Below, in pieces: positions 3,463 to 63,947 of a stretch of DNA of 64,000 nucleotides; position 1 is the stretch's first letter, and each line of letters begins with the position of its first letter. The DNA comes from Xanthostigma xanthostigma. Lineage: Eukaryota; Arthropoda; Insecta; Raphidioptera; Raphidiidae. The DNA lies in contig OY754467.1 of NCBI GenBank assembly GCA_963575645.1, forward strand, positions 38,561,108 to 38,625,107. The letters run 5' to 3'. The position numbers and the translations under genes are program-made. The notes under the pieces are model-generated. The model had not been told where the DNA came from, did no database searches, and saw only the letters and a list, made by a program, of their open reading frames with translations.

Positions 3463-3627
3463 AGGGTGACCGGCAATTGCTCGTATTCCTCTCGGGAGAA
3501 GAAACTATGACGAATTTGGAATGATTGAACTTCTATCACTTGGAGGTCAGAAATGCGTATTTTTTATGATAATGACACTTCTGTGAAGAATTTTTATTTA
3601 TTTTTACACGCTTTATATTAACTTCAC

Positions 3628-3694
3628 TTGTATGTATGTATGTATGTATGTATGTATGTATGTATGTATGTATGTATGTATGTATGTATGTATA
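3628..3694. repeat. (TATG)n microsatellite
   Basis: About 16 tandem TATG units lie inside the tRNA-Leu-like palindromic element. The copies at 24.37 kb and 53.69 kb have only two to four units, so the array expanded in this copy. Confidence 0.9.
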
Positions 3695-3771
3695 TATGTT
3701 TGTAACTTTCATTTGGACTACAGCAAGTGGTTTATATAGCGATATAATATGCCAGCACAATAAGTACACTG

Positions 3772-3858
3772 GTACCCGTGCGGTCTAAGGCACGGATCTT
3801 CGCTGACGTCAACTCTCGGCATCACGGGTCGTGAGTTCTAATCCCGTCCACACCGAAA
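3772..3858 (+). other. tRNA-Leu-like sequence inside a mobile element
   Basis: CCGTGCGGTCTAAGGC resembles the D-arm/A-box of leucine tRNAs (usual form GCCGAGCGGTCTAAGGC). GAGTTCTAATCCC sits where the T-arm/B-box should be. The spacing suits a class II tRNA with a long variable arm, but the acceptor stem does not pair properly. It is therefore a relic or a promoter-only derivative, not a working tRNA. The sequence CCGAAAA to TTTTCGG follows at once and supplies an oligo-T stop for RNA polymerase III. Confidence 0.55.
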
Positions 3859-4349
3859 AAAAAATTGTTTTTTTTTCGGCAAATTTTTCACAATAAATCG
3901 AACTAAAAAGTGGAAAATAAATATAGTTTAAAAAAAACTAAAAAACACGCTTTATATCAAACAAAAAAGTGAAAAATAAATATAGTTTAAAAAAAAACTA
4001 AAAAACAAGCTTTATATCGAACTAAAAATTAAAAAATGTTTTTTTTAAATAAGCTTAAAAAGCGCGGGGCGCTCGATGTACGAAAATGTGGAACAAAGCG
4101 CCCCACGCTTTTTAAGCTTATTTTAAAAAAAATATTTTTTAATTTTTAGTTCGATATAAAGCGTGTTTTTTAGTTTTTTTTTAAACTATATTTATTTTTT
4201 TATTTATTGTACCTACCTAAGTTTTAACACAACATAAAATCTAACAGTAAATTTCGTGGTTTTTAGCTTTAGGAAGGTTGGTCGATTTGTACCTAAGCTA
4301 TCAGATCATGAAAAAATTAAGGCCAAAAAGTTAAAATATTTTCTTATTT

Positions 4350-18762: not shown

Positions 18763-19208
18763 CAGGTGTCCGGTAATTGCTCGTATTCATCTCGGGAGAA
18801 GAAACTATGACTAATTTGGAATGATTTTACCTCTATTACTTGGGGGTCGCAAATGCGTCATTTTCGAGAAAATCTACTTCGGTTTTCTTTTCACAACAAT
18901 CCGAATTTTGGGAGCTAAAAATTAAAAAAAAATATTCTTACTTTTTGGCCTGAATTTTTCAATGATCTGATAGCTTACTAATTGGCCAACCTTTGTAAAG
19001 CTAAAAACCACGAAATTTACTGTTAGATTTTATGTTGTGTGTTAAAACTAACAATAAATACAAAAAATAAAATAAAAATTCTTCACAGAAGTGTCATTAT
19101 TATAAAAAAAATGTCGCATTTCCGACCCTCAAGCGAAAGAGGTTAAATCATCCAAATTAGTCATAGTTTCTTCTCTCGAGAGGAATACAAGCAATTACCG
19201 GTCACCCT
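18763..19208. mobile_element. GGGTGACCGG MITE, complete copy
   Basis: The left end (CAGGTGTCCGGTAATTGCTC) and right end (CAATTACCGGTCACCCTATA) are inverted repeats extending about 75 bp, through GAAGAAACTATGACTAATTT. TATA flanks both sides. The 446-bp element encodes nothing and is the reference for the copies at 3463 and 12,855. Confidence 0.85.
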
Positions 19209-24352: not shown

Positions 24353-24832
24353 CACGCTTTATATTAACTTCACTTGTATGTATGTTTGTTTGAACCTTCG
24401 TTTGGACTACAGCAAGTGGTTTATTACTGTAGTATAATATGCCAGCACTGTAACTACAGTGGTTAGCCGTTCGGTCTAAGGCACGGATCTTCGCTGACGT
24501 CAACTCTCGGAATCACGGGTCGTGGGTTCTAATCCCGTCCACGCCGAAAAAAAATTGTTTTTTTTCGGCAAATTTTTGACAATAAATCGAACTAAAAAGT
24601 GGAAAATAAATATAGTTTAAAAAAAAAATAAAAAACACGCTTTATATCGAACTAAAAAGTAAAAAATATTTTTTTTTAAATATTGTGAAAAAAGCGTGGC
24701 GCGCTTTGTTCCACATTTTCGTACATCGAGCGCCCCACGCTTTTTTCACAATATTTAAAAAAAATATTTTTTACTTTTTAGTTCGATATAAAGCGTGTTT
24801 TTTAGTTTTTTTAAAACTATATTTTTTATACT
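24353..24832 (+). mobile_element. palindromic element with tRNA-Leu-like sequence, copy 2
   Basis: The order is the same as at 3605-4200: ACACGCTTTATATTAACTT, GGACTACAGCAAGTGGTTTA, the tRNA-like segment, then the palindrome. Here the palindrome centre reads GCGTGGCGCGCTTTGTTCCA and TCGAGCGCCCCACGC (24,692-24,741), and the arms are nearly perfect. The (TATG)n run is only about two units long. This is the tidiest copy, about 480 bp. Confidence 0.78.
24462..24547 (+). other. tRNA-Leu-like sequence, copy 2
   Basis: TAGCCGTTCGGTCTAAGGC matches the leucine-tRNA D-arm apart from a few bases. GTGGGTTCTAATCCCGT forms a T-arm with a 5-bp stem (two of the pairs are G-U). GTGG/CCAC is all that remains of an acceptor stem. 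An A8/T8 stem (GCCGAAAAAAAATTG then TTTTTTTTCGGC) follows and would stop polymerase III. No CCA or intact acceptor, so not a functional tRNA. Confidence 0.6.
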
Positions 24833-28033: not shown

Positions 28034-28320
28034 TGGGCGAATGAAGGAATTTTTAGCAAATTAGGATAAGGTAGGCATTTTGAATAATATAAGGAATCAT
28101 CTCAATATTTATCTGGAATTGTTGATGGAAACCATGGAAACCTCAACAAGATGGCCGGTACAGGAATTACCGTTTCTCGGCGAGAGGCAGTGGGAAAAAC
28201 TCCCAGTCATATCTGCCCCGCCAGGATTCGAACCCGGTACCTCTTGAATGCGAGTCTAGTGCTCTCACCGCTACGCCACCCCGCTCGGTTCTAAGGTTTA
28301 ATAAGCATGATAGTAAAATA
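27829..28320 (+). mobile_element. TCTACACTAATATTATTAAG repeat interrupted by a SINE
   Basis: It begins TCTACACTAATATTATTAAG and follows the copy at 32,316-32,548 for about 140 bases (TTTCAGGATGGACATAGG). A SINE with target duplications lies inside it at 27,981-28,288, and host sequence resumes as GTTTAATAAGCATG. The CTAG end is not visible. Confidence 0.55.
27981..28288 (-). mobile_element. tRNA-derived SINE with target duplication
   Basis: On the minus strand the head (28,288 to about 28,215) carries a polymerase III A-box (TGGCGTAGCGG) and a perfect B-box (GGTTCGAATCC, 28,224-28,234). An unrelated body follows (GCCTCTCGCCGAGAAACGGT, CATCTTGTTGAGGTTTCCAT), then an (ATT)n tail at 27,981-28,033. 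TTCTAAGCTTTAATAA and TTCTAAGGTTTAATAA flank the insert (15 of 16 match), as expected for LINE-driven retroposition. It encodes no protein. A 5'-truncated relative lies at 42,745-42,965. Confidence 0.85.
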
Positions 28321-51240: not shown

Positions 51241-51356
51241 CCATAATTCTGTAATAGGTATTTGGAAAAGATTCCGTGGCATAAGGATCGAAAATTAACT
51301 TCAATGGATTACAGTTACTTCAGCATAAAGTAGTGTTGATCCAATAGAATGTTACG

Positions 51357-51652
51357 ATGAAGGATGGTTTTGGTTGAGGATCATAAATAAATAAGCTTTA
51401 CCAATGTTTCGCTAGTGGCCAACGTTTCGAAAAATTTATTTTCATCTTGAGGTATGTAATAGATTTATATAGTAGCTCTAGTGAAAAAACTTATTGTAAC
51501 TGTTAGATATAATATTATGATCTAAATATAAGCATATATACATGTTCATAGGCCCTGAAGATGAAAATAAATTTTTCGAAACGTTGGCCACTAGCGAAAC
51601 ATTGGTAAAGCTTATTGATTTATTATCCTCAACCAAAACCATCCTTCATCAT
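51357..51652. mobile_element. second foldback with hammerhead-like motif
   Basis: Arms of about 95 bp (51,357-51,452 and 51,557-51,652) are inverted copies: GATGAAGGATGGTTTTGGTT, TTACCAATGTTTCGCTAGTG. The plus strand at 51,551-51,589 carries GGCC, CTGAAGA, GAAAAT/ATTTTTC, GAAACGTT and GGCC. Layout and GAAACGT tail match the 40-kb foldback, though the sequences differ, suggesting a related terminal-repeat type. Penelope-like origin is an inference. Confidence 0.55.
51551..51589 (+). ncRNA. hammerhead-ribozyme-like motif 2
   Basis: A four-pair stem I (GGCC with GGCC) encloses CTGAAGA, an extra T, an AT-rich stem II, and GAA-AC-GT-T. As in motif 1, stem III is two pairs without a loop and one extra base follows A9. 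Stem I is better than in motif 1. Self-cleavage is unproven. Confidence 0.45.
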
Positions 51653-52269: not shown

Positions 52270-52785
52270 CGAGTAATCTAAAAATAAATATAGTTTAAAA
52301 AAAACTAAAAAACACGCTTTATATCGAACTAAAAAGTAATAAATATTTTTTTTAAATAAGCTTAAAACAATAATGAATAAAAAATACAAGTATTATTGTG
52401 AAAAAAGCGTGGGGCGCTTTGTTCCACATTTTCGTACATCGAGCGCCCCACGCTTTTTTCACAATAAAACTTGTATTTTTTATTCATTATTGTTTTCAGC
52501 TTATTTTAAAAAAAATATTTTTTACTTTTTAGTTCGATATAAAGCGTGTTTTGCACATACCGCTAAACTAGCGGTATGTGCTTTATTATCGCTTTGTGAG
52601 TCAGAGCTGACTTTCGTTCATATAAGAAGTTATATCTAAGTTAATTTCACACGAAATCCATTCAAATTGAAGCTTTTTGAAAAGAGGAGATTCTAATCTA
52701 TAAAATAGAACCATTTTTAAATCAATTTGAGTTCATAAATACTATTAAAATTGTAATTGAAAATCACAAACAGCAGTTCTCGGTT

Positions 52786-52826
52786 GGTCTGTACGTATGT
52801 ACGTACGTACGTATGTACGTACGTCA
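52786..52826. repeat. ACGT/ATGT microsatellite
   Basis: Ten or so tandem tetranucleotides (ACGT with some ATGT) inside the tRNA-Val-like element. Copy A has only about two at the same place. Confidence 0.85.
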
Positions 52827-53050
52827 CGACTCTACAGATCGCAATTTTGGTCGGATTGCCTTGGGTTATATTTTATTCACTTTGTTTACTATCAGACCAG
52901 AACCCTATTTAAATTCACTAAAATGTGTTCAGTAGTTTAATTTTTATAAAGAGTTTTATTTTTTATTATTTTTGACAGCTATTAGTTTAAAAACAATATC
53001 CATAAAACAAGTGCTACACTTGTATACCGTGATAACACCACTGCACGTAT

Positions 53051-53125
53051 TAGGCCGCCGTGGTGTAATGGTTATGCCGTTGGATCCCCAAGGGCAAGGT
53101 CCTGGGTTCGATTCCTTACGAAATC
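53051..53125 (+). other. tRNA-Val-like sequence, copy B
   Basis: CCGTGGTGTAATGGTTAT differs from the usual valine-tRNA start (CCGTGGTGTAGTGGTTAT) at one base. GGGTTCGATTCC at 53,104 is a perfect B-box. T- and acceptor stems pair poorly. A T-rich run (about 53,130-53,160) follows and would end a polymerase III transcript. The promoter may still work although the tRNA cannot. Confidence 0.6.
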
Positions 53126-53530
53126 ATTGATTTTTTTCTTTTTTTTTTCTTTTTATTTTGTTTTATTTTATTCCACTTGATATTAATTATATATTATATT
53201 ATGTATAGTTCTTAATTTTTTTTATTTTTGCAAACTTAAAAAAAAATATTTTTTCAATTTTTAATTATTTATTTCTTTAAATTTTTAAATCTTTTTAAAT
53301 TTATTAAAAATATTTTTTAATTGTTATTTTTTTATCATACAGTGGAAAACTTGCGGGATGTGCACTTTTGGTTTTGCCAACTATTTTAGTTTTTTTTTTA
53401 AATATATTTATTTTTCACTTTTTAGTTTGATATAAAGCGTGTTTTTTAGTTTTTTTTAAACTATATTTATTTTCCACTTTTTAGTTCGATTTATTGTCAA
53501 AAATTTGCCGAAAAAAAACATTTTTTTTTT

Positions 53531-53618
53531 CGGCGTAGACGGGATTAGAACCCACGACATGTAATTCCGAGAGTTGACGTCAGCGAAGACCCGTGCCTTA
53601 GACCGCTCGGTCAACGAT
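53531..53618 (-). other. tRNA-Leu-like sequence, copy 3
   Basis: On the minus strand, GACCGAGCGGTCTAAGGC is the closest of the three copies to a real leucine tRNA D-arm. GTGGGTTCTAATCCCGT is the T-arm, as in copy 2. The acceptor stem is again not intact. The CCGAAAA/TTTTCGG stem follows at 53,504-53,532. Confidence 0.6.
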
Positions 53619-53893
53619 TCCTCTTACAGTAGTGGCATAACATACTAACAGTAATAAACCACTTGCTTAGCCCAAACGAATGTTACAAACAAACATACAT
53701 ACATACAAACTTATAAGTAAAGTTAATATAAAGCGTGTAAAATATGCATCAAAATCGGTCAAGTGGAAGCCTATGAAAAACACCTTGTTTTTCTAGTTTG
53801 TTTTTTTTTTTAGGTTATCTGAGCCTACTACCAATGAGTTTATAAACAACTTTTTTATTTTAATCATTAGAGATTATAAAAAGTAAAGACTAA

Positions 53894-58786: not shown

Positions 58787-58822
58787 ATAGCTATAACCTT
58801 GCAGATATGCAACTAAATATAC

Positions 58823-60247
58823 ATGAGTGATAATCCAACAGATGTAGAATTTCCACAACCACAAGCCTTACACCCTACCAATATGCAATCAATTACCGAA
58901 ACCAATAACACAGCACCCACACCAATGCGCTCACAAAATACCAATAATCCAAACACACAGACCTTTGCAAATGTAGTTAGGAGACAACCGACATTTCAAA
59001 CCCCAAAAAAAGATCAAGGTATAATAATAAATTCTCTAAATGGCGTTAAAATAATTGACTACATTAGAGCCGTAGCTAATTTAATACATGGAAAAAATAT
59101 TATAGCAGCTTCCAGAATCGCTAACGAAAGAATTTGCATGTACTTATCTAGCAAAGAAATGGTTGATAAGTTAATTAGCGAACATGAAACTATTCTAGTC
59201 AATGAACAATCTGTCAATATAAGAAGAATGATAACCCCTGCAAAAAGATTAATCATATCAAATATAAACCCTCTCATTCCCAATGATATATTGGAAGAAA
59301 AATTACACAACATGAGTATAAATCTAGTATCGCAAATTTACTATATGAGGGCAGGTGCAACAGACCCAGATCTATCACATATAGTCTGTTTCAGACGCTA
59401 TGTTTATATAGTACCTGATGAAAAACATGAAATCCCAGACTCTGTCATAATAAATTTTGATAATGATGATTACAGGATATATTTAAATATTGATATTCAA
59501 AAATGTTACAGATGTAATCAAACTGGACATATTTCATCTAAATGCCCTAAACCTGATACTTCTGACACTTCATCTTCAAGATCTGCTTATCCGCTACCTT
59601 CTACAACTCTTGAAACCCCTGAAACTTGTCTATCTGGCAATGAATCGGACTCTTCTGACAACCAACCTGACGACGAAATGCGACCTAGAGCTCAAAAGCG
59701 TCCTCCTCCCCCATCCACTTCCACTACCGAAACAGACCCAGACCTAGTGGCTGAAATCGAAATTGAGCGTCCAACAGGAATTGTAGATGAAGATCCACCT
59801 GAAACAGAAAATAAATCAATTAATACATGTTTATCTTTTCGTAAACCGGAACCTAAAAAACTAAAAGTAAATCAAAAGGAACAGGTAACCCTAGCTACAG
59901 GAAAAGTAAGTAAATCACCCACCGATATTGCTCTTTTACCACTGGAAACTAAAATAAGAACTGTACGTTATGTACTTACTTATGATAAATTTGTGAGTTT
60001 CATAAAACAGATACAAAAATCAAAAGATCCTCTAAGCTTAGCTCGCACATATACACACAATATTGAAGGTCTCCTAGCAATGATGAAAGACCTATACCCG
60101 TTTTTAAGGGACAAAAATATGAAAACAAAATTCACAAAAATTTCAAACAAATTAAACAAACGGTTAATAACAGAAAAGGACATAGAAAATGAGATACCCC
60201 CCTCCCCAATGACTCTCTCACCAGACAACTCGGAAGACGAACATTAA
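58823..60247 (+). CDS. LINE ORF1, RNA-binding protein with CCHC zinc knuckle
   Basis: 474 residues. Such proteins bind the element's RNA and form the ribonucleoprotein that carries it back to the nucleus. The N-terminus (1-50) is polar and Asn/Thr-rich and leads into FANVVRRQP. Residues 70-220 have two stretches that could be RRM-like folds (NGVKIIDYIRAV; PAKRLIISNINPLIPNDILE). A single zinc knuckle CYRCNQTGHISSKC occupies 228-241 (Cys 228, 231, Cys 241, His 236). The remainder (245-350) is acidic and Ser/Pro-rich, and the end is Lys-rich. The start codon is the first ATG of the frame after the leader hairpin. The last 35 bases overlap the ORF2 frame. No stops or frameshifts. A host gene is unlikely given the ORF2 that follows. 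Confidence 0.85.
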   Translation: MSDNPTDVEFPQPQALHPTNMQSITETNNTAPTPMRSQNTNNPNTQTFANVVRRQPTFQTPKKDQGIIINSLNGVKIIDYIRAVANLIHGKNIIAASRIANERICMYLSSKEMVDKLISEHETILVNEQSVNIRRMITPAKRLIISNINPLIPNDILEEKLHNMSINLVSQIYYMRAGATDPDLSHIVCFRRYVYIVPDEKHEIPDSVIINFDNDDYRIYLNIDIQKCYRCNQTGHISSKCPKPDTSDTSSSRSAYPLPSTTLETPETCLSGNESDSSDNQPDDEMRPRAQKRPPPPSTSTTETDPDLVAEIEIERPTGIVDEDPPETENKSINTCLSFRKPEPKKLKVNQKEQVTLATGKVSKSPTDIALLPLETKIRTVRYVLTYDKFVSFIKQIQKSKDPLSLARTYTHNIEGLLAMMKDLYPFLRDKNMKTKFTKISNKLNKRLITEKDIENEIPPSPMTLSPDNSEDEH

Positions 60248-63200
60248 GTTCAACCTAATACAATGGAATTTAAATGGCTACTTCCCGCACATCACAGACC
60301 TTAAAAGACTAATATCAGAACACGAACCATCAACAATCTGTTTACAAGAAACTAACTTTAAAACAACCCATACTCCATACCTAAATAACTATTCTTTTTA
60401 TCGCAGAGATAGAACAAACACAGATCACGCTAGCGGTGGGGTTGCCATACTGGTTAAAGATACATACTACGCAGAAACTCTCACACTCGACACTGACTTC
60501 GAAGCAATTGCAATAAAACTTCACATAATATCTCAACCTATAACAATATGTAATATATATATACCTAACAATAAATATATTTCTGTTCAAGATATAGAAA
60601 AAATAATAGCTCAGCTGCCCACGCCTTTCATAATAACAGGAGACTTCAACGCTCACAGTTACCTCTGGAGTTCAAAACAGGACAGCAGAGGAAAAATCAT
60701 GGAAAAAATACTAGATCTAGAGAACATATCACTGCTAAATGATGGACAACCAACCCATCTAAGTCTATCCACAGGAACACTCACCGGCATTGACCTAACC
60801 TTCTGTCACGCGTCCATCACTCCCATCCTCGAATGGACTGTTCTTCCAGAACTTTACAACAGCGACCACTTTCCAATACTCACTAACATTTCCACTCAAA
60901 ATATTGAAGTTTCTTACCCACCTAAATGGAGACTAGAAAAAGCTGACTGGAACGCATATCAAAATGAAGTATCCAACAAAATTAACAATTTCAATATAAA
61001 TAATAATATAGATACGATAATAAAACAGTTTACAAAAATAATAATAGAAACAGCAGAACATTATATCCCACAAACGAAATCAAAAAGCAGACGCACACAG
61101 AATCCATGGTGGAATAAACAATGCGAAGAAGCCACCAGTAATAGCAAAACAGCGCTAAATAAATACAAAAAACACCAAACTATAGAAAATCTAATAAATT
61201 TTAAAAAACTAAGAGCTATCGCAAAAAAAACAGTAAACGAGAGCAAAAAACAAACCTGGGCAAATTATATAAATAGTATTAACTCATCCACTACAACCAA
61301 AGAAGTTTGGGATAAAATAAATAGAATAAAAGGAAAACCTAAAAATTTCCACATTGCAGCCCTAAATACCGACAACAAAACAATAACAAGCTCCAAGGAA
61401 ATATCAAACTCACTAGGCGAAATCTACCAAAAAAACTTCAGCTCTGAAAATTACGACAAGAACTTTTTAAAATTCAAAACCAAAAGCGAAAAACAACAAA
61501 TAGATCACATGAGTCATAACAAAGAAGATTTTAATCTTCCACTCTCAGAGAGTGAATTAGAAGCGGCCCTCCAACAATGCCGAAACACTAGCCCAGGAGC
61601 TGATAAAATACACAACGAGTTTTTAAAAAAGCTTCCCCAGTCTGCCAAAAATACATTATTACAAATCTATAATCACATATGGAATGAAAACACATTTCCC
61701 ACAGAATGGCGAAAAAGTATAATACTGCCTATTCTGAAGCCAAACAAAGAAAAAACTAACCCGGAAAATTACAGGCCTATAGCCCTTACATCATATCTAT
61801 GTAAATTAATGGAAAGGATGGTAAACAACAGACTCATGTGGACCTTAGAACATCAAAAATTACTAACGCCTGCACAGAGTGGTTTCAGAAAAGGTATGTC
61901 AACAATAGATCAAATAATAAATCTTCAAACTGAAATATACAACTCTTTTGCAACCAAACAACATTTACTAGCAATTTTCCTGGACATCGAAAAGGCTTAT
62001 GATACAACCTGGCACAGAAACATCCTCGAAACCCTTAAAGAATGGAAGATAGTGGGCAATATGGCTTCTTTTATAAATAACTTTCTAACGAAACGTAAAT
62101 TCCAAGTCAGAACAGGAAATATATTATCTAATGAATATAAACAAGAAAATGGTATCCCTCAGGGTTCTGTTCTTGGAGTAACCCTTTTCTTAATTGCTGT
62201 CAACAAAATAACAAATAAAATAACATTTCCTACAAAGATTTCCCTATATGCAGATGATGTGGTAATATACTGTGCTAATAAAAACCTTAAAACAATTCAA
62301 AAGGAATTAACCTCAGCTCTACTTCACCTAGAAAAATGGTCAGCAACTACCGGGTTCAAATTTTCAACTAGAAAAACCAAATGTATCTTATTCACAAAAC
62401 ATAGACGTGCTACAAAACCCGCTTTAAAATTAAATAATATACAGCTAGAATATGCAAAACAAATTAAATATTTAGGCGTCATCCTTGATGATAAGTTAAA
62501 TTGGAAATCGTATATCACTGACCTAAGGAAAACCTGCAGAAAAAGCATTGATCTCATCAAAACACTGTCTCACCACACTTGGGGAAGTGATACTAAACAA
62601 CTTATACAAATATTTCAAGCATTGGTAAGATCGAAAATTGAGTATGCATGCATAGCATATGCAGCCGCACAAAAGAACATTGTAAATATCATCAATACAG
62701 TATATAATACAGCACTACGACTAGCTTCAGGTGCACTAAGAACTACTCCGTTGGAAAGCCTTTATGCAATCACAGGTGAAATGTCACCTGAAATGCGTAG
62801 AGAGATGTTAACATTACAATATAATACAAAAATAAAACTAAACCCTACTCATCCAAATTATCAAATGATTACAAATCCACATTACCAATGCACATACGAA
62901 TCAAATGAAAAATATACAAAACCGTTGCCTATAAAAAACGAACAAATAATTCAAAAATACCATATTGAAAACATACCATTAAAAGTAAACGCGCATAACA
63001 AAATACCACCTTGGTTTTTCAGTAATCCGAATATCAATTACGATCTATCAATATATAATAAATCCGAAACCACCCCGGCTATATTTCAAAGCCATATAAA
63101 TCAAATTTTAGATCTACATAAAGAATACGTCAAAATTTATACAGATGGTGCAAAATCTGAACTTGGAACCGCTTGCGCATTTATACTTAATAACAGACCG

Positions 63201-63947
63201 ACAGAAATTAAACTCTCAAAATTCGCAAGTATATTTACAGCGGAACTATTTGCTCTAAAAAATAGTCTAACTGAATTTAAAAAAATTTACCAAGAAAATA
63301 ATAAATGCATAATACTGTGCGACTCACTCAGCGCACTACAATCAATATCGCGGCTATACCCTACAAATCCTATAATTCAAGAAATTCAAAATCTGTTATA
63401 CGAACTTCAAAATAGATCATGCACAATAAATTTTATTTGGATACCCTCCCATGTTGGAATCTATGGTAACGAACTAGCTGATACGCACGCTAAACAAGCG
63501 ATAACATCTGAAAACCCATCTGTGGATGAAAATACAATATATAAAGACATAAAAAACTATATTAAACATCAAATAAAAACATTTTGGGCAGAAAAATGGT
63601 TTAACATTGAGGGCAATAAGCTGAGGGAAATAAAACCCGATATAAACTACTGGGCTAATCCCACAAAAATGAAAAGAAAAGAAGAAATAGCTCTAGTACG
63701 TCTCAGAACGGGCCATAGCAAACTAACCCATAACTACATCTTCAAAAAAGAAAACATACCAACCTGCGATATGTGCCACGTCCACTTAACTATCAAGCAT
63801 GTTCTCACAGACTGCATAAAATACTTTCAGGCCAGTTATGATTGCATACTCCCGGAAAGCCTAGAAGAAATATTAAATAATACATCAGTCAACATAAATA
63901 AATTAATGAAATTCCTACAACAAACAGGACTTACCAATCAGCTCTAA
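60213..63947 (+). CDS. LINE ORF2: endonuclease, reverse transcriptase, RNase H
   Basis: The open frame runs 1,244 codons from 60,213. Residue numbers here count from there. The apurinic-type endonuclease, which nicks the target, shows QWNLNG (17-22), LQET (Glu 46), TGDFNAH (Asp 144, Asn 146) and SDHFP (Asp 218, His 219). The reverse transcriptase shows FLDIEKAYD (Asp 591), GIPQGSVLG and YADDV (Asp 681-682). RNase H has YTDGAKS (Asp 978), Glu 1011, CDSLSAL (Asp 1037) and GNELADTHAK (Asp 1090). A C-terminal CDMCHVH...CIK motif starts at Cys 1185. There is no ATG before codon 163 (60,699), which lies inside the endonuclease, so translation must use coupling with ORF1, a shift of +1, or a non-ATG start. 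The RNase H points to the I clade rather than Jockey. Confidence 0.9.
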   Translation, partial: LSHQTTRKTNIKFNLIQWNLNGYFPHITDLKRLISEHEPSTICLQETNFKTTHTPYLNNYSFYRRDRTNTDHASGGVAILVKDTYYAETLTLDTDFEAIAIKLHIISQPITICNIYIPNNKYISVQDIEKIIAQLPTPFIITGDFNAHSYLWSSKQDSRGKIMEKILDLENISLLNDGQPTHLSLSTGTLTGIDLTFCHASITPILEWTVLPELYNSDHFPILTNISTQNIEVSYPPKWRLEKADWNAYQNEVSNKINNFNINNNIDTIIKQFTKIIIETAEHYIPQTKSKSRRTQNPWWNKQCEEATSNSKTALNKYKKHQTIENLINFKKLRAIAKKTVNESKKQTWANYINSINSSTTTKEVWDKINRIKGKPKNFHIAALNTDNKTITSSKEISNSLGEIYQKNFSSENYDKNFLKFKTKSEKQQIDHMSHNKEDFNLPLSESELEAALQQCRNTSPGADKIHNEFLKKLPQSAKNTLLQIYNHIWNENTFPTEWRKSIILPILKPNKEKTNPENYRPIALTSYLCKLMERMVNNRLMWTLEHQKLLTPAQSGFRKGMSTIDQIINLQTEIYNSFATKQHLLAIFLDIEKAYDTTWHRNILETLKEWKIVGNMASFINNFLTKRKFQVRTGNILSNEYKQENGIPQGSVLGVTLFLIAVNKITNKITFPTKISLYADDVVIYCANKNLKTIQKELTSALLHLEKWSATTGFKFSTRKTKCILFTKHRRATKPALKLNNIQLEYAKQIKYLGVILDDKLNWKSYITDLRKTCRKSIDLIKTLSHHTWGSDTKQLIQIFQALVRSKIEYACIAYAAAQKNIVNIINTVYNTALRLASGALRTTPLESLYAITGEMSPEMRREMLTLQYNTKIKLNPTHPNYQMITNPHYQCTYESNEKYTKPLPIKNEQIIQKYHIENIPLKVNAHNKIPPWFFSNPNINYDLSIYNKSETTPAIFQSHINQILDLHKEYVKIYTDGAKSELGTACAFILNNRPTEIKLSKFASIFTAELFALKNSLTEFKKIYQENNKCIILCDSLSALQSISRLYPTNPIIQEIQNLLYELQNRSCTINFIWIPSHVGIYGNELADTHAKQAITSENPSVDENTIYKDIKNYIKHQIKTFWAEKWFNIEGNKLREIKPDINYWANPTKMKRKEEIALVRLRTGHSKLTHNYIFKKENIPTCDMCHVHLTIKHVLTDCIKYFQASYDCILPESLEEILNNTSVNINKLMKFLQQTGLTNQL

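Follow-up and report, generated by a model that had tools for sequence, protein, structure and literature searches.

A repeat family of Xanthostigma xanthostigma, found in three copies in the window (the whole 64,000-nucleotide stretch of DNA analyzed here), is very probably a high-copy-number non-autonomous Helentron (HINE, DINE-1-like). HINEs are a described group, as set out in PMC4067079, although the initial annotation had known of no described family for this element. What appears to be new is the occurrence of a tRNA-Leu segment and a long palindrome within one HINE.

Layout, ends and target sites of the elements

The initial annotation had reported one shared order of parts in three copies, and this order was found in place in all three. 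Reading from the 5′ end, each copy has a T-run, the repeat ACACGCTTTATAT, a TATG microsatellite and a GGACTACAGCAAGTGG block (a variant of it in copy 3), followed by the segment resembling tRNA-Leu and an A/T stem that includes a long T-run. Next come stretches of the element's own 3′ end in inverted orientation, the long palindrome, the inverted repeat ATATAAAGCGTGT and a small hairpin, and the copy closes on T-rich letters. The CACGCTTTATAT motif recurs in inverted form ∼33 nt inside the 3′ end, with the small hairpin after it, a feature that had not been listed before, and also between the tRNA-like part and the palindrome. Complete copies measured about 480 to 600 bp, and no coding capacity was detected in the elements, all three frames of at least 150 aa in the window lying outside them.

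Copy 1 occupies positions 3601 to 4199 of the plus strand, with a 3′ end that is uncertain by a few T-rich bases. It opens with five Ts and the 5′ subterminal inverted repeat (3601 to 3618, the repeat itself at 3606 to 3618), followed by the TATG microsatellite (3630 to 3700) and the GGACTACAGCAAGTGG block (3715 to 3730), which was present letter for letter in 23 of 39 copies fetched from elsewhere in the genome. The tRNA-Leu-like segment (3766 to 3856) contains a D-arm-like stretch at ∼3775 to 3794 and a B-box-like stretch at ∼3834 to 3844, and the A/T stem with its T-run, a possible Pol III stop, lies at 3853 to 3879. Two minus-strand copies of the 3′ repeat lie at 3945 to 3957 and 4005 to 4017 (the latter with one mismatch), the long palindrome spans 3961 to 4205 (93% complementary; loop at 4073 to 4097), and the 3′ repeat (4154 to 4166) and 3′ hairpin (4171 to 4188) together span 4154 to 4188. 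Copy 2 (plus strand, 24350 to ∼24830) has its tRNA-like segment at 24456 to 24546 and its loop, in flipped orientation, at 24705 to 24729. Copy 3, on the minus strand, is a single element split in two by 831 bp of other repeat sequence (52553 to 53383). Its head part (53384 to 53742) carries the 5′ repeat at 53726 to 53738 and the tRNA-like segment at 53526 to 53620, while the palindrome and 3′ part (∼52280 to 52552) include the 3′ repeat at 52312 to 52324 and the hairpin at 52291 to 52307. Within the interruption, a plus-strand tRNA-like stretch noticed by eye (GTGGTGTAATGG ... GGGTTCGATTCC; 53056 to 53110) is perhaps a nested SINE head.

Helentrons and HINEs are described in PMC4067079 as having 12- to 15-bp subterminal repeats, 2 to 5 boundary Ts, T-rich targets with no target-site change, a 3′ palindrome and microsatellites. 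The elements analyzed here have 13-bp inverted repeats, placed asymmetrically, with the 5′ repeat directly after the T-run and the 3′ repeat ∼33 nt inside the end, slightly under the 38 to 60 nt given for mite families in the same paper. A 3′ hairpin of the TAGTTT..AAACTA type, corresponding to the HINE 3′ palindrome, was recognized in 34 of the 39 fetched copies; its stem was predicted in two window copies but was weak (z = −0.9 and −1.3). Of 35 copies, 28 had two to five Ts ahead of the 5′ repeat, and 21 had exactly five. For these 35 copies, the mean for words common to a copy's own flanks was 3.14, compared with 2.91 (standard deviation, 0.32) for swapped flanks, indicating that no target-site duplication is present.

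The flanks of the 35 copies were also joined and aligned to the window and the fetched loci as a search for empty sites. There were 41 junction-spanning alignments, of which 31 came from L034 and were uninformative because they matched the element's own A/T stem. Paralogous sites lacking the insertion were detected for L042 (three, in L024, L009 and L032), L018 (one, in L031) and copy 1 (two clear ones, at window positions 19185 to 18962 and in L033, and a weaker one in L028). A further site for L024, in L049, was less complete, with a short left part, and the alignments for L012 and L039 were weak or partial. At the useful sites, the DNA around the insertion was T-rich and contained no flank duplication distinguishable from T-rich letters; a short T-rich duplication may exist at the insertion site of copy 1.

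These features distinguish the family from other element classes. A canonical Helitron, which requires a 5′ TC, a 3′ CTRR and insertion between A and T, was rejected, the ends here being a T-run plus ACACGC and AAACTATATTTA and the target being T-rich. Hel1, a canonical insect Helitron, likewise forms short non-autonomous rolling-circle elements without target-site duplication but is described with 5′ TC and 3′ CTRR/CTRY ends and an A/T insertion point (PMC6544945). The foldback class named in the initial annotation was not supported, as the asymmetric repeats, T-run boundaries, lack of duplication and 3′ hairpin are those of a HINE. Cut-and-paste transposition of a foldback element or TIR MITE would account for the long palindrome and for inverted copies of ACACGCTTTATAT near both ends, but the asymmetry of these repeats (after the T-run at the 5′ end, ∼33 nt inside at the 3′ end) and the absence of a constant target-site duplication led to its rejection and make such an origin very unlikely. 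A separate MITE is possibly represented in the window by inverted 97-nt arms at 51356 to 51452 and 51554 to 51650, which are 97% complementary and 101 nt apart.

The HINE assignment is consistent with the descriptions available for two known systems. As outlined in PMC4067079, HINE/DINE-1 elements (INE-1 in Drosophila) have subterminal inverted repeats, one close to the 5′ end and the other tens of base pairs inside the 3′ end, a 3′ palindrome, a microsatellite, boundary T-runs and a T-rich target, and they combine the lack of target-site duplication with high copy number and no coding sequence, as does the present family (with its TATG run and 2,362 genome matches to the tRNA-like core). The present family differs in carrying a tRNA-Leu-derived segment and a palindrome of ∼245 bp (copy 1) that holds the element's own 3′ end in inverted copies. 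In the Pacific oyster, Cg_HINE is also modular, with subterminal inverted repeats of 11 to 12 bp, a microsatellite, a 3′ palindrome and T-rich insertion without duplication, and, as here, it was not matched to a partner; its central module is, however, a satellite-like array, and the word tRNA occurs 0 times in the accessible text of PMC7492417.

Copy number and linkage across the genome

Patterns were counted over the 623-Mb, 28-contig genome, with each pattern in reversed form as the control. The 36-base tRNA-like core had 2,362 matches (up to 3 mismatches), the left end 3,160 and the right-end motif 10,971, the last count being inflated because inverted copies of the motif sit inside the element; all reversed controls gave 0. 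An exact left end was followed 104 to 134 bases on by an exact 14-base piece of the core at 920 sites and by an exact 9-base piece at 1,377 sites, and the 14-base piece was followed 262 to 292 bases on by a piece of the palindrome loop at 180 sites, again with 0 matches for each control.

Forty copies were scored among 700 candidates, and the 39 lying outside the window were fetched with their surroundings. The left end was present in 38 of the 39 (absent from L021), the right end was recognized in 34 (not in L015, L016, L026, L027 or L030) and the palindrome loop, allowing 6 mismatches, in all 39; these co-occurrence figures are biased because the copies were picked by likeness to the core. 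From the opposite direction, the core (up to 10 mismatches) was found in six of seven copies selected by their palindrome (L049 to L055), and of 100 exact left ends in the contig C1 listing, at least 61 were accompanied by a core (55 plus 6, by coordinate matching). Divergence of copies from the majority sequence was ∼4% on both sides of the core. The genome-wide search yielded many copies sharing the tRNA-like part and fixed ends, and a pattern in which palindrome and tRNA-like part occur mostly apart was not found among the core- and palindrome-selected copies. The earlier suggestion that the parts moved as one unit is upheld: the parts form a single mobile unit whose ends are fixed, with a fixed spacing from left end to core at 1,377 places.

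On contig C1, inverted pairs of the right-end motif were also seen 154 bases apart (for example, 3932014/3932168 and 4266565/4266719). No exact left end lay near these pairs among the matches listed, and they are possibly palindrome-only or 5′-truncated copies. Exact element patterns had 0 matches in viral_contigs and 0 in genome_contigs, and copy 2 had no blastn match among phage records. Among the window's other repeats is a LINE, possibly a recent one, on the plus strand at 58817 to 63947, with two long frames, one for a zinc-knuckle protein of 476 aa and the other for an endonuclease-reverse transcriptase of 1,244 aa.

The tRNA-Leu-like segment and the long palindrome

Five versions of the segment were compared with six tRNA-Leu genes of the same genome (L057 to L062, called Leu by ARAGORN). 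The z scores over dinucleotide shuffles were 5.0 to 11.1, and in each of the 30 comparisons none of 200 shuffles reached the observed score, so that the part described as tRNA-Leu-like in the initial annotation is homologous to host tRNA-Leu genes. Copy 3, which retains GACCGAGCGGTCTAAGGC, came closest to tRNA-Leu; of the three copies in the window it was also the one that had diverged furthest (14% in the core). The majority core contains GCCGTGCGG, in which T replaces the conserved A of the tRNA A box. When six copies were scored against consensus words, the best A-box word matched at 10 of 11 positions in two copies and at 9 of 11, off the expected place, in the other four; B-box words matched at 10 of 11 in five copies and at 9 of 11 in copy 1.

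Searches for an intact tRNA were negative. ARAGORN made 0 tRNA calls in the window, and Rfam gave no tRNA match on the window copies at the gathering threshold, on 12 element loci at E values up to 1 or on copy 3 at E values up to 5. RNA folding, which had been proposed as a check, revealed no excess of structure, the z scores of the four tRNA-like segments against shuffles being −0.7 to 1.0. At the gathering threshold, Rfam found a single tRNA match in the window, at 28220 to 28279 on the minus strand (30 bits; E = 0.031), which probably marks the tRNA-derived head of a different type of SINE. Judged by these comparisons, the tRNA-Leu homology of the segment is real but decayed, with likeness to an intact tRNA lost. 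The segment may derive from a tRNA-Leu gene fragment or from the tRNA head of a SINE.

Pol III stops at T-runs, and a Pol III transcript of the element should end at the T-run after ∼100 to 130 nt. As this lies before the palindrome, a Pol III RNA is unlikely to be the mobile form. Use of the putative promoter by Pol III is itself doubtful because both boxes are mismatched, the majority of copies have T at the A-box A and the T-run comes early. These observations bear on the alternative that the family is a SINE headed by tRNA-Leu, with an atypical palindromic body, and was mobilized by a LINE via a Pol III RNA. Homology to host tRNA-Leu, A- and B-box-like words and copies in the thousands would agree with a SINE, but the head lies roughly 90 to 150 bp inside a fixed left end, target-site duplications are absent, both sides have T-rich ends and the T-run right after the head should end the RNA short of the palindrome. 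A SINE was therefore rejected on the position of the head and the lack of duplication, and we regard this origin as extremely improbable.

The ∼245-bp palindrome of copy 1 folded as single-stranded DNA far better than shuffles (z = −6.6). The orientation of the 25-base loop was examined among 42 copies (39 fetched and three in the window). The majority orientation was present in 38 and the flipped orientation in two (L038 and copy 2); part of the loop was deleted in L013, and the loop of copy 3, which was beyond the range of this search, had the majority orientation on separate inspection. The palindrome-selected set of seven added three flipped loops (L049, L050 and L053). Several versions of the stem exist. 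Automatic labeling of 51 palindromes assigned both arms to one version in 43, left one arm unlabeled in seven and gave differing labels in one (L053), whose arms match by eye despite the labels.

Five truncated or interrupted palindromes of the 51 were left out of the tests of arm symmetry. A broad permutation test found no excess of mirrored changes among left-arm minority substitutions (30/232, or 12.9%, versus 13.5%). Among rare variants shared by exactly two arms, in contrast, 5 of 31 pairs had both arms in one copy versus 0.34 expected, and looser cutoffs gave 8 of 85 versus 0.93 and 10 of 157 versus 1.73. The mirrored signal, seen by one of the two tests, is considered modest because three of the ten mirrored sites adjoin one another in a single copy (L011). 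Template switching between inverted repeats homogenizes arms and inverts spacers, according to PMC8604942, and would account for both loop inversion and arm symmetry here, perhaps acting in a single-stranded intermediate.

Helentron-type genes, proposed mobilization and significance

Sequence matches indicate that Helentron-type proteins are encoded in this genome. The Helitron Rep domain had 89 matches, and an intact 2,404-aa frame on contig C1 (L056:1800-9014) contains Helitron_like_N, PIF1 helicase and ubiquitin hydrolase (UCH) domains, together with an endonuclease match below its cutoff. At 10 loci, L056 included, the endonuclease part recurs ∼3.4 to 3.7 kb downstream of a Rep match, and these loci form at least four groups as judged by Rep and endonuclease scores; L056 has three relatives with 97 to 98% identity over the endonuclease part. 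No partner with the same ends was found: L056, the one Helentron-type locus that was read, does not carry the ends or repeat of this family, and its protein had no tblastn match in the window or the other fetched loci. An autonomous partner of the tRNA-Leu-bearing HINE is nevertheless presumed. A dense cluster of decayed Helentron endonuclease matches, many with stop codons, was also observed at ∼11.9 to 13.7 Mb on contig C10.

We infer that a Rep-helicase-endonuclease of the Helentron type would move the HINE in trans and that the intermediate would be single-stranded DNA, inserting at T-rich sites. An ancestor would have gained the tRNA-Leu gene fragment (or SINE tRNA head) as well as a long palindrome, made up of copies of its own 3′ end in inverted orientation; amplification of the composite as one unit would have followed. 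Hairpin or template-switch copying between the arms would keep the palindrome symmetric and also invert the loop. The most likely role of the tRNA-like part is that of a hitchhiker. A narrower form of this scheme, in which a single insertion brought a SINE or tRNA pseudogene into a Helentron-type element, where it remained a passenger without any role, is somewhat favored; it is consistent with the decayed boxes and folding and with the most divergent window copy being the most tRNA-like, but no core outside an element was seen among the 39 core-selected loci, a biased sample.

Rather improbable is a version in which a Helentron exploits the Pol III promoter of a captured tRNA-Leu and the palindrome is a self-templating hairpin. 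Transcription or TFIIIC binding near the 5′ end would expose single-stranded DNA for the Rep nick, and the hairpin in the single-stranded intermediate would keep the arms alike and flip the loop. If true, such a Pol III-assisted Helentron would be the DNA-transposon counterpart of SINEs and TRIMp3. The TRIMp3 elements (Helenus, Ajax and Cassandra) are similarly non-autonomous with a small-RNA-gene-derived segment but belong to another class, being LTR retrotransposons with the segment in the LTR, and the word Helitron occurs 0 times in the accessible text of PMC10886601.

Capture of a tRNA by a Helitron would be the first case for a non-coding RNA, according to a 2023 paper (PMC10701932). The Arabidopsis tRNA-Cys genes described there also lie within annotated rolling-circle elements but form a local tandem cluster, for which three Helitron-finding programs gave no reliable prediction. 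Among the full-text matches listed, a set outside subscription papers and Repbase, there was no tRNA-bearing Helentron or Helitron and no tRNA-like MITE or foldback element, and six sequence strings of the element were absent from the searched full paper texts.

tRNA heads are a hallmark of SINEs. The present family indicates that not every tRNA-like repeat is a SINE, such a segment here being fixed in a rolling-circle-type DNA transposon with thousands of copies, and hence advises caution for repeat and tRNA annotation pipelines. The palindrome, with its loop inversion and some mirrored changes, is a natural system in which to ask whether one arm is copied from the other in single-stranded intermediates of transposition.
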